A stretch of DNA of 64,000 bases from Persephonella sp. KM09-Lau-8 (GTDB taxonomy: Bacteria; Aquificota; Aquificia; Aquificales; Hydrogenothermaceae), in the NCBI RefSeq assembly GCF_000703085.1, contig NZ_JNLL01000001.1:434001-498000 (forward strand), written 5' to 3'. The position numbers were made by a program, and so were the translations under genes. The notes below the pieces were generated by a model. It did no database searches. It was not told the origin of the DNA and worked only from the letters and a program-made list of their open reading frames with translations. Positions 28,222 to 30,942 of this stretch are shown here, in pieces. Every line of letters begins with the position of its first letter. Positions within the stretch are counted from its first letter, which is position 1.

Positions 28222-29427
28222 ATGCTCTCAAAGATATACGGGCAGCAAAAAAAGGATATATATCTGCTTATATTTAATCTTCTAAAAGATAGCAACATAT
28301 TTGGAATTCTTTATGGCAAAAAAGGTATAGGCAAAAAATATGTTGTAACCAGTGCAATCAATAATCTTTCTTCATCATTTGATAAAAAAATCTTTATTGA
28401 AGCTACACCTTTATGGAAAAATGAAATCCTTTCAGCCCTTGGGATAGAAGCGGATGCAGGAATATCAAAAGAAGAATTTTTAATTAAATTTATAGATTTT
28501 TTGGAAGATTTTGATGGCAGAGTGTTTATTGTTATAAACAATGCACAGAATTTGACAGAAAAGGAACTGTCAGAACTTGCACATCTATTAAATATAAAAG
28601 AGAAATTATCTGTTTTTGTGATAGGCACACCACAGCTCAAAGAAAAGTTAAACCCCTTTAAAATAGGAAAAATAGAAGGTAGCATAAACTTTATTCTTGA
28701 GGTTGAACCCCCTGAGTTTGAAGAGTTCAAAAAATATTTCACAGATAAATATGGTTCCCAGATTGAAGAAAAAGCCTTGAAAATACTTTACAAAATGACA
28801 GGTGGTTCTATAGAAGAGGCAGAAAATACCATCCTGAGAGTAGGCAAATTTCCTATAGAACCAAAAGATTTAGGATATAAACCGAACTTTTTAAAACCTG
28901 TTTTGGTTGGGATTGTTGTTTTTGCAATTATAGGTGTAATTTCATACGGAATTTATTACGGATTTAATTATTTTAATTCTCCAAAAGAGAAAGAAATAGT
29001 AGAAAAAATCAAAAAATTAGACAAAAAACTACCGGAAGAAGGGATAATTACAGAAGGTTTACCTATTAAGCCTAAACCGAAAAAAAATAAAAAACCTGTT
29101 ATTAAAAAGATAAATTTTGATGAAAAAAGTATTATTCAGGAGATTAATCAACAGTTAGATAGCCTTTCTTTTGATATACCTGAAATAAAGTTTTATCAGC
29201 CAGTTTATAATTATCTTGTTCAGGTAGCTGCATTCAGGAATTTTGATAATGCAAAGAAATTTGCTGATAGGCTAAAAAAAGAGTTTCCAAATATAAGTGT
29301 AATTAAGACAAAAAAAGGACTTAGTCTTGTTGTAATCAAAGCCGAGGATAAGAAAAAAGCCATTAAGATAAAAGATAAACTAAAAAAGTATAAGATAACT
29401 GCAATAGTCAGAAGGATAGGAAAATGA
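28222..29427 (+). CDS. Membrane-anchored AAA ATPase with C-terminal SPOR domain
   Basis: A 401-residue protein. Residues 1-210 resemble the GspA/ExeA-type AAA domain, with a P-loop GKKGIGKK in which the usual Ser/Thr after Lys is Lys, and a Walker B-like VFIVINNAQN with Asn replacing Asp. A membrane helix spans about 225-248, a Lys/Pro-rich linker follows, and the last 75 residues are a SPOR domain (YLVQVAAFRNFDNAKKFADRLK), which binds denuded peptidoglycan. The architecture resembles DamX. It overlaps the downstream ExeA-like gene by 4 bases, and the degenerate P-loop suggests it is a partner subunit. Confidence 0.78.
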   Translation: MLSKIYGQQKKDIYLLIFNLLKDSNIFGILYGKKGIGKKYVVTSAINNLSSSFDKKIFIEATPLWKNEILSALGIEADAGISKEEFLIKFIDFLEDFDGRVFIVINNAQNLTEKELSELAHLLNIKEKLSVFVIGTPQLKEKLNPFKIGKIEGSINFILEVEPPEFEEFKKYFTDKYGSQIEEKALKILYKMTGGSIEEAENTILRVGKFPIEPKDLGYKPNFLKPVLVGIVVFAIIGVISYGIYYGFNYFNSPKEKEIVEKIKKLDKKLPEEGIITEGLPIKPKPKKNKKPVIKKINFDEKSIIQEINQQLDSLSFDIPEIKFYQPVYNYLVQVAAFRNFDNAKKFADRLKKEFPNISVIKTKKGLSLVVIKAEDKKKAIKIKDKLKKYKITAIVRRIGK

Positions 29428-30638
29428 TGGATTTTTTAGAGTTTTTTAATTTAAAGGAAAATCCTTTTAAACTTACTCCGGATGTGGATTTTTTCTATAT
29501 GTCATCTGTTCATCAGGAAGCCCTTGCTTCACTTGAGTATTTACTTAATTCTGAAGAAGGATTTGCAGTAATTATAGGAGAGCCCGGAACAGGAAAAACA
29601 ATAACAATTCGCAAATTCCTCAGTCAGATTCCTGAAAATGTAGAATATGCTTATATTCTTTTTCCCAATCTGTCTCCTGAAGAGCTATTTATGGCCATAT
29701 TAGAGGATTTTGGCATACACCTATCTGATAAGGTTTCCAAAAACAAACTTTTCTCAACATTAAGAGATTTTCTGATACAAAAAAGAAAAGAAGGCAAAAA
29801 AGTTCTTGTGATTATTGATGAAGCCCAAAATTTACCTGTGGAAACCCTTGAAGAACTTAGAATTTTATCAAATCTGGAAACTGACAAAGAGAAATTATTA
29901 CAGATAATACTTCTTGGTCAGCCTGAATTAGAAGAAAAACTGAACTCATCAGAACTTAGGCAACTCAGACAAAGGATAAGCATTTTGACCCGTTTATCAA
30001 ATCTGGATTACAGGGAAATGGTTGATTATATCAACTACAGGCTATCAAAGGCAGGTAATTCAACTATAAGAATAACTGAAAAGGCGTATAAAGCCATTTA
30101 CAAATATACACAGGGTAATCTAAGACTGATTAATCTGCTAATGGAAAGAGCCCTTATGTCAGCTTTTGTTGAAAATAAACACCAGATTGATAAAGAAAAT
30201 ATAGAAAGTGCAGCAGAAAGTCTGGCTTTAAGGAAGGAGACAGGGAATAAAAAATATCCTGTTTTAATAGGTATTTTTGCACTTGTGGTTTTTATATTTG
30301 CAGGTGGTTTTGCTTATTTTTATTTAAATGAAGAAAAAGAGGTTAGTTATAAAAAAGAGAATACTGAAAAAATTAATAATTCTAAAACCTATACCATTTC
30401 TAAGAAAAATGGAATTGTTATTGCAAATATATTAAATGTAAGAGAAAATCCATCTATAAACTCAAAAATTATTAACAAATTAAGAAAAGGTGATAAAATA
30501 GAGATTGTAGAGGAAGCAGGAGATTGGCTGAAAATCCAGAAAGGTACACTTCAGGGTTGGGTTAAAAAGGAGTTTGTAAAGATAAACAATGGAGCAGCTA
30601 AGGAAACGAATAAATCAGATAATAGGAAAGAACTTTAA
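29424..30638 (+). CDS. ExeA/GspA-like AAA ATPase with transmembrane helix and bacterial SH3 domain
   Basis: A 404-residue protein. The N-terminus FFNLKENPFKLTPD is the hallmark of ExeA-type ATPases; Walker A GEPGTGKTIT (about 52-60) and Walker B VLVIIDEAQN are intact, and the LRQRISI segment follows. One membrane helix (about 278-296) leads to a periplasmic tail with a bacterial SH3b domain (ILNVRENPSINSKIINKL). ExeA uses ATP to help pass secretin through peptidoglycan; no secretin or GspB-like gene is here. The paired SPOR ATPase suggests a hetero-oligomer across the inner membrane. Confidence 0.83.
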   Translation: MMDFLEFFNLKENPFKLTPDVDFFYMSSVHQEALASLEYLLNSEEGFAVIIGEPGTGKTITIRKFLSQIPENVEYAYILFPNLSPEELFMAILEDFGIHLSDKVSKNKLFSTLRDFLIQKRKEGKKVLVIIDEAQNLPVETLEELRILSNLETDKEKLLQIILLGQPELEEKLNSSELRQLRQRISILTRLSNLDYREMVDYINYRLSKAGNSTIRITEKAYKAIYKYTQGNLRLINLLMERALMSAFVENKHQIDKENIESAAESLALRKETGNKKYPVLIGIFALVVFIFAGGFAYFYLNEEKEVSYKKENTEKINNSKTYTISKKNGIVIANILNVRENPSINSKIINKLRKGDKIEIVEEAGDWLKIQKGTLQGWVKKEFVKINNGAAKETNKSDNRKEL

Positions 30639-30942
30639 ACATATTGAGGCTATTTTTGTATATAAGGATAATAGTTTAGTTTCATATGGATTTGCTCCAT
30701 TTATTGAGGACAATCCAGATAATTTTTACAAATACAATTCCCATATAGAAAAAATACTTGAATATAAAGATAGATTAAGAGAAAAAGTTTTATATTATTA
30801 CAAAGTTAATCTCGGTAAAAAATATGTTTATTTATTTGTTTATAAAATATATGATATGTATTTTTTCATTTTTACAGATGAGCTTAATCTGGATATTGCC
30901 CCTATTATTTATGAACAGATTTTAAAGCCTATTACCCTCTAA
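30589..30942 (+). CDS. Unknown small protein after the ATPase pair (117 aa)
   Basis: No family recognised. The frame begins inside the 3' end of the ExeA-like gene (50-base overlap) and converges on lipA with an 11-base overlap. The sequence shows an N-terminal helix (MEQLRKRINQIIGKNF), then alternating strands (AIFVYKDNSLVSYGFA) and aromatic strands (YVYLFVYKIYDMYFFIFTDELN), a pattern like a Roadblock/LC7 or PAS-like fold. Overlap lowers confidence in the start. Confidence 0.6.
   Translation: MEQLRKRINQIIGKNFKHIEAIFVYKDNSLVSYGFAPFIEDNPDNFYKYNSHIEKILEYKDRLREKVLYYYKVNLGKKYVYLFVYKIYDMYFFIFTDELNLDIAPIIYEQILKPITL

Follow-up and report, generated by a model that had tools for sequence, protein, structure and literature searches.

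Our analysis suggests that two adjacent genes in a 64,000-nucleotide stretch of the Persephonella sp. KM09-Lau-8 genome (hereafter the window; G000:C1:434001-498000 of a 2.07-Mb genome) serve the assembly of a pilus secretin. The best explanation, to which we assign a probability of ~60%, is that the second protein, P2, is a GspA/ExeA/MshM-type assembly ATPase for the secretin MshL and that the first, P1, is a catalytically dead partner in the same complex. The assignment of P2 to the MshM type of machine is fairly well supported, and the dead partner is the new element. In listings of the open-licence literature, we noticed no paper devoted to such a P1/P2 pair or to MSHA pili of Aquificota. 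The features of the two genes and of a third, P3, are collected in Table 1.

Table 1. Features of the P1, P2, and P3 genes and their products (positions in the window)
Feature	Position	Strand	Basis
P1, probable pseudo-ATPase (AAA_22) with TM helix and SPOR domain, 401 aa	28222..29427	+	frame, Pfam, alignments, model
P1 degenerate Walker A, GKKGIGKK	28315..28338	+	sequence, alignment
P1 Walker B position, NN replacing DE	28537..28542	+	sequence, alignment
P1 predicted TM helix, residues 227-245	28900..28956	+	hydropathy
P1 SPOR domain, residues 330-397	29209..29412	+	Pfam PF05036, 38.5 bits (cut-off 21)
P2, ExeA/GspA/MshM-type ATPase with TM helix and SH3b domain, 404 aa	29424..30638	+	frame, Pfam, NCBIfam, hydropathy
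P2 intact Walker A, GEPGTGKT	29577..29600	+	alignment
P2 intact Walker B, DEAQ	29817..29828	+	alignment
P2 predicted TM helix, residues 280-298	30261..30317	+	hydropathy
P2 SH3b domain, residues 337-386	30432..30581	+	Pfam PF08239 (SH3_3), 50.1 bits (cut-off 27)
P3, predicted roadblock/LC7 fold, 117 aa	30589..30942	+	frame, model, structure searches

The preliminary description had placed two membrane ATPase-type genes back to back, and their coordinates, frames, and order proved right: the P2 start overlaps the P1 stop (ATGA), and each product combines an AAA_22 domain (Pfam; 41.9 bits for P1 and 103.8 bits for P2, cut-off 27) with a single strong hydrophobic segment. The SPOR domain ascribed to P1 and the reading of P2 as an intact ExeA-like ATPase with an SH3b domain were borne out as well. 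Searches of the PDB by sequence matched P1 to SPOR, Cdc6, and RecA entries and P2 to SH3b domains, TnsC, MuB, and Cdc6. The AlphaFold model of P1 reached a pLDDT of 71.5 and a pTM of 0.49, with low values in the linker, and its AAA+ core matched Cdc6/Orc1, RFC, and TnsC in a VIA-align comparison that covered the AAA part and left the tail outside. A marginal Cas6b match of P1 (0.0096) and the TnsC-like (1.1e-10) and mad8-like (2.5e-5) matches of P2 in PADLOC were taken as general AAA similarity or chance. A promoter scan around the genes was uninformative (14 promoter-like sites vs 18.9 expected), and a terminator scan of the same surroundings found none.

The degenerate P-loop reported earlier for P1 is present, and Walker B is lost too. 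Among 10 aligned members of the genus, Lys or Arg replaces the Walker A Thr/Ser in every case, and NN stands for DE in nine, with DN in the remaining one (L018); the QLxxRI stretch of P2 is missing from P1. The comparison was extended to more genes: none of 18 first genes (14 P1 and four from genera g4/g5) has the Walker B Glu, and all 23 P2-type genes do. The QLxxR(I/V) stretch, the presumed site of the finger arginine judging by AAA+ proteins in general, is missing in 14/14 P1 and kept in the four g4/g5 first genes. With a branch 8.02 long and ENAH at the aligned Walker B position, E. coli GspA was excluded from these motif counts. Motif loss is graded among relatives: a Walker A GKT persists in three P1 (L060, L061, and L062), and Asp occupies the Walker B Glu position in four first genes (L060, L061, L063, and L097), so that catalysis is likely lost only in the window's genus and a few others. 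In the window's genus, P1 is likely a pseudo-ATPase. A single origin of P1 and the g4/g5 first genes received an AU p of 0.41 in a quick tree that left out GspA, L063_P1, and L099_P1.

Such a protein could be a leftover of gene duplication that has no role itself, leaving P2 to work alone, and both the long branch of P1 (3.25 changes per column) and its absence from G021 would fit. We regard this as improbable, given that the AAA part of P1 has dN/dS values of 0.03-0.15 in the five pairs computed, some with dS near saturation, and that a strong P1 match occurs in 12 of the 14 genus genomes. The corresponding values for P2 are 0.02-0.07 in the four pairs with usable dS, again with some dS near saturation. 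P1 thus appears to be maintained under purifying selection despite its lost catalytic residues. The P1 linker, otherwise variable, includes a periplasmic stretch after the TM helix, DKKLPEEG (window 29020-29043, residues 267-274), in which D267, K269, L270, P271, E273, and G274 are invariant in 10/10 genus members. Named P1 relatives come from Persephonella, Hydrogenothermus, Hydrogenothermaceae, and Aquificota MAGs, as obtained by scanning one 10-residue pattern (427 stretches matched, 7 confirmed).

The neighbourhood, whose conservation was proposed earlier as a check, was compared among relatives. P1-P2-P3-lipA is contiguous in 10 of the 14 genus genomes, and in G026 this stretch is split over contigs. 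P3 matches occur in 11/14, with a fragment in G026, and G029 is without P1 and P3. In G021, which has neither P1 nor P3, P2 is followed directly by lipA; since this genome keeps both MshL and P2, P1 and P3 are accessory. P1 runs straight into lipA in G020 (74% complete), where no P2, P3, or MshL matches were found, and P2 stands alone in the four g12 loci read (L100-L103).

Across 136 genomes, many of them fragmented, MshL-type secretins (A4 profile, at least 470 bits) were counted in 41 and P2-type ATPases (A2 profile, at least 430 bits) in 33. The two occur together in 30 genomes, with 11 having MshL only, 3 P2 only, and 92 neither (Fisher p 1e-17, uncorrected for descent); the 88 better genomes gave 18, 8, 1, and 61, respectively, likewise uncorrected for descent. 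Before counting, we excluded fragments of MshL (G019, G026, and G029) and of P2 (G060, G061, and G103), diverged secretins scoring 167-222 bits (five genomes, genera g25, g27, and g28), and partial ATPases of either possible type (G006, G007, and G034). P2 and MshL share a contig in 16 of the 30 genomes that have both, at distances below 6 kb in 11 of them, of 17 kb in one, and of 74-410 kb in four (including 104 kb in the window's genome), again uncorrected for descent.

Some of these counts speak against linking P2 to MshL. The three genomes counted with P2 only are G010 (96% complete), G090, and G019, the last with a fragment of MshL, and MshL occurs without P2 in the 11 genomes mentioned. 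In G064, G104, and G003 the contigs end near the expected P2 place, so absence there is unsure; P2 is missing from G050 with its expected place visible, and G037, G015, and G040 have MSHA-like sets with no MshN match and no P2.

That no secretin or type II secretion partner lies near the pair, as first described, is literally true within the window; gsp and MSHA-like sets are found elsewhere in the genome, and the inference drawn from the absence does not hold, as the genome does encode the secretin and relatives have its gene close by. Three secretins are encoded outside the window (434-498 kb), at C1 96, 569, and 1182 kb; by frame reading, one accompanies pilMNOP, one a gspC-N-like set, and one belongs to an MSHA-like set. 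The last scores 237.6 bits with the MshL model TIGR02519, just under the cut-off of 250.2, vs 164.5 bits for PilQ and 159.4 bits for GspD. We read its locus as mshI-J-K-L-N, pilins, E, and G, where the gene names other than MshL are a reading of gene order and similarity. The MshE-like protein matches the PilB and GspE models best, below both cut-offs, and its MshE-related c-di-GMP domain is over the cut-off. Frame reading revealed no MshM-type ATPase gene in this locus, and the 104 kb between mshL and the P1/P2 pair count against the connection with MshL. In the portions of the survey consulted, the published MSH system model treats mshM as mandatory, and MSH systems are named in Gammaproteobacteria, Chrysiogenetes, and Epsilonproteobacteria (PMC6668835).

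In relatives, the P2-type gene is found at the pilus locus itself. It is convergent with, and adjoins, the pilin ending the mshI-J-K-L-N-like set in G001, G004, and L100-L103 (g12), and is separated from the terminal pilin by one gene in G016 and by two in G002. Since genus g12 belongs to another family, this linkage spans families f1 and f2. The cell-envelope machine envisaged in the preliminary description is therefore best taken as one for pilus assembly, in view of the P2-type genes beside the MSHA-like locus in two families and the co-occurrence with MshL; for its other proposal, septum assembly, the one pointer is the SPOR domain type. Two further features of such loci were observed. In G029 (C63, L125), a 55%-complete genome that gave no P2-type match, the MSHA-like locus is disrupted into several frames. 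At L101:1144-2901 and L113:6240-8006 a large, apparently multi-membrane protein, by eye perhaps a pilin glycosyltransferase, is encoded beside MshA-like pilins.

The pair might assemble the type II secretion secretin GspD or the type IV pilus secretin PilQ, as GspA does in Aeromonas, rather than MshL: frame reading shows both a gspC-N-like set and pilMNOPQ in the genome, and ExeA is presented as a type II secretion protein in the published portion drawn on here (PMC4098917). We consider this unlikely, since a secretin profile in which GspD and PilQ are pooled matches 133/136 genomes, P2-type genes occur in 33 and track MshL, and the stretches of 16 kb that surround the gsp and pil secretins revealed no P1/P2-like gene.

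A search of the genome found a single further ExeA-type ATPase, a short paralog (C1:309.9 kb) that is 54% identical to P2 over residues 2-270 and present in 29/136 genomes. This paralog, 307 aa long, intact as an ATPase, and hydrophobic in a C-terminal segment, could itself be the pilus MshM, leaving P1 and P2 to do something else, and it is associated with MshL above chance. Its association (17 genomes with both, 24 with MshL only, 12 with the short form only, and 83 with neither; p 0.0004, uncorrected for descent) is nevertheless weaker than that of P2, it was found in no g12 (f2) genome though MshL occurs in 16 of 17 of these, and the copy in the window's genome lies beside aroA and other non-pilus genes, which together make this very unlikely. 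That copy (L054:10754-11677) is without SH3b and by eye has aroA-, lptA/lptC-, and hemA-like neighbours. Least probable of all, in our estimate, is an XrtA/PEP-CTERM or exopolysaccharide-associated ATPase: TIGR03015 is the best NCBIfam match of P2 (264.8 bits), but this score is below the cut-off of 324.5, the short paralog scores higher (276.4), and no exosortase match was found in the genome by a search that was positive in only 1 of 14 controls.

The comparison of P2 with GspA/ExeA and MshM draws on published assembly ATPases, in each case from excerpted accounts. An identity of 43% is given for V. cholerae MshM and ExeA (PMC4624765), the latter an ATPase with a peptidoglycan-binding tail that, with ExeB, is required for assembly of the ExeD secretin (PMC4098917); GspB works with GspA in Vibrio and Aeromonas, and in Dickeya its HR domain binds the secretin N0 (PMC9239104). 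P2 shares with GspA/ExeA an intact cytoplasmic AAA domain, one TM helix, and a predicted periplasmic domain of peptidoglycan-binding type, and an HR-like protein is likewise encoded in the associated locus. It differs from E. coli GspA in that SH3b replaces PG_binding_1 and no C39-like domain is present; moreover, the associated secretin is of the MshL type, the HR-like protein is encoded in the pilus locus, no gspB adjoins P1/P2, and there is an extra pseudo-ATPase with SPOR. Strict GspA membership fails on the missing adjacent GspB and the other tail domains. Like MshM, P2 is an ExeA-like ATPase, and in relatives its gene is linked to an mshI-J-K-L-N-like set; unlike MshM, P2 has an SH3b tail and is paired with P1, and its gene is convergent and outside the operon in relatives and 104 kb away here. 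The strongest contrary fact is that, in the available part of the V. cholerae study, deletion of mshM did not lower pilus production, the mutant being piliated like the wild type (PMC4624765).

A split GspA/GspB pair, raised earlier as a refutation, does not fit P1, which is itself ATPase-like, the second such protein of the pair; the match to a GspB-like domain lies in the MshK-like protein. The Pfam T2SSB (GspB) model matches 17/17 MshK-like proteins at E<=0.1, often weakly (best 6e-8), and neither P1 nor P3. Two T2SSB-like places occur in the window's genome, at 570 and 1184 kb. The MshK of this genome scores 16.2 bits against a cut-off of 28.4, and its GspC slightly better, at 18.6 bits. 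Of 14 control genomes, 10 also gave matches at E<=1, all of them below the cut-off. Given the weak MshK match, the GspC match, and those in controls, the MshK domain is HR-like and not surely GspB.

We infer a P1/P2 hetero-complex that would bind the wall, install the secretin, and be targeted to the septum. P2 would hydrolyze ATP in the cytoplasm, and the complex would be anchored to peptidoglycan by its two kinds of tail, SH3b in P2 and SPOR in P1. MshK, an HR-domain protein encoded beside mshL, would bridge the complex to the secretin and so allow MshL to be set into the wall or across it. P1 would contribute a structural subunit and, via SPOR, direct placement to the glycan-rich septal wall, with P3 as an accessory cytoplasmic roadblock-fold protein. 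The pair bears on how a secretin ring crosses the cell wall and on the role of the GspA/MshM ATPase in this, for which the published portions consulted report that ExeAB is needed for ExeD (PMC4098917) and suggest that mshM is dispensable for V. cholerae piliation (PMC4624765). A natural pair in which one ATPase is conserved despite its lost catalytic residues, with genus-variable tails and natural losses (G021 and G020), offers a direct means of separating ATP hydrolysis from wall anchoring.

The tails were compared with Pfam and with in-house profiles, that for SH3b being trained on ten P2 tails from g1, g4, g7, and g12. Among P2-type proteins, Pfam found SH3b in those of the window, L063 (g7), L097 (g5), and L100 (g12), and the in-house profile in L096 and L098 (g4), L097, L101-L103, and L107 (g17); by the latter, SH3b is absent from the four g2 proteins and from L105. 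The four first genes of g4/g5 also carry SH3b, which replaces SPOR there. With Pfam (SPOR cut-off 21), P1 of L063 (21.4 bits) and L062 (30.0 bits) score over the cut-off and that of L060 (18.2 bits) below it, and no SPOR was found in P1 of L099. SPOR matches in g2 P2 tails are weak (19.9 bits in L062, 15.5 in L060 and L099) and none was found in L106, the in-house SPOR profile supporting L062 only. The wall-binding-type tail thus varies between genera as the P2 ATPase core stays constant. At L105:7058-10589 (G016), a further P2-type ATPase, with a Cds6_C (NTF2-like, Csd6-type) tail replacing SH3b, is followed by a YkuD and Cds6_C protein and an M99 (Csd4-like) carboxypeptidase; at L060:6059-8199 (G002), a YkuD and Cds6_C protein and an M99 carboxypeptidase are encoded between the pilin and the P2-P1 pair.

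As P1 shares one TM helix and a SPOR domain with E. coli DamX, it might instead be a factor of the DamX kind, acting in cell division or at the septal wall and having nothing to do with pili. Pfam finds no AAA match in E. coli DamX, the aroK-aroB-damX-dam context is absent at P1, the g4/g5 first genes have SH3b and not SPOR, and P2-type genes lie beside the pilus locus in relatives, so this reading seems quite improbable to us. As to MshL installation, the part of PMC5285504 relied on here describes denuded septal glycan as bound by SPOR and AMIN domains and the PilQ AMIN domains as recruiting T4aP parts to future division sites; P1 might, by analogy, act like these septal binders. Doubtful but more specific is a mixed ring of active P2 and dead P1 AAA+ domains, whose two different wall-binding tails would serve as an address: the SPOR tail would direct MshL to septal wall that has just been denuded, so that it is already in place at the future pole, and P3 would tie the ring to a polarity GTPase.

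P3, whose gene overlaps the P2 end and is convergent with lipA, was described earlier as an unknown gene, and its product has no Pfam match at E<=1. Its model (pLDDT 89.2) has the order H-E-E-H-E-E-E-H. In the VIA comparison it scored 12.4 with a Mon1 longin-type domain, 11.1 with an archaeal roadblock protein, and 10.9 with MglB; the best rows had Z of 10-12 and covered 101-112 of the 117 residues, and longin- or roadblock-type titles made up most of the 50 rows. Foldseek gave no match to the model at E<=0.001 (best 0.0012), and the PDB sequence search gave only two beta-glucosidases at 0.06-0.07. P3 is thus predicted to have a roadblock fold, the fold of MglB, from which it differs in having no Pfam sequence match at E<=1. 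According to an excerpt of PMC9481161, the GTPase MglA and type IV pili of Myxococcus are regulated by the roadblock protein MglB. In G016, P3 lies beside lipA and ~58 kb from P1-P2; its tie to lipA is therefore no weaker than that to the pair. A roadblock (MglB-like) protein recognized by eye elsewhere in the window's genome (L054:18316-18672) is a possible relative or partner of P3.
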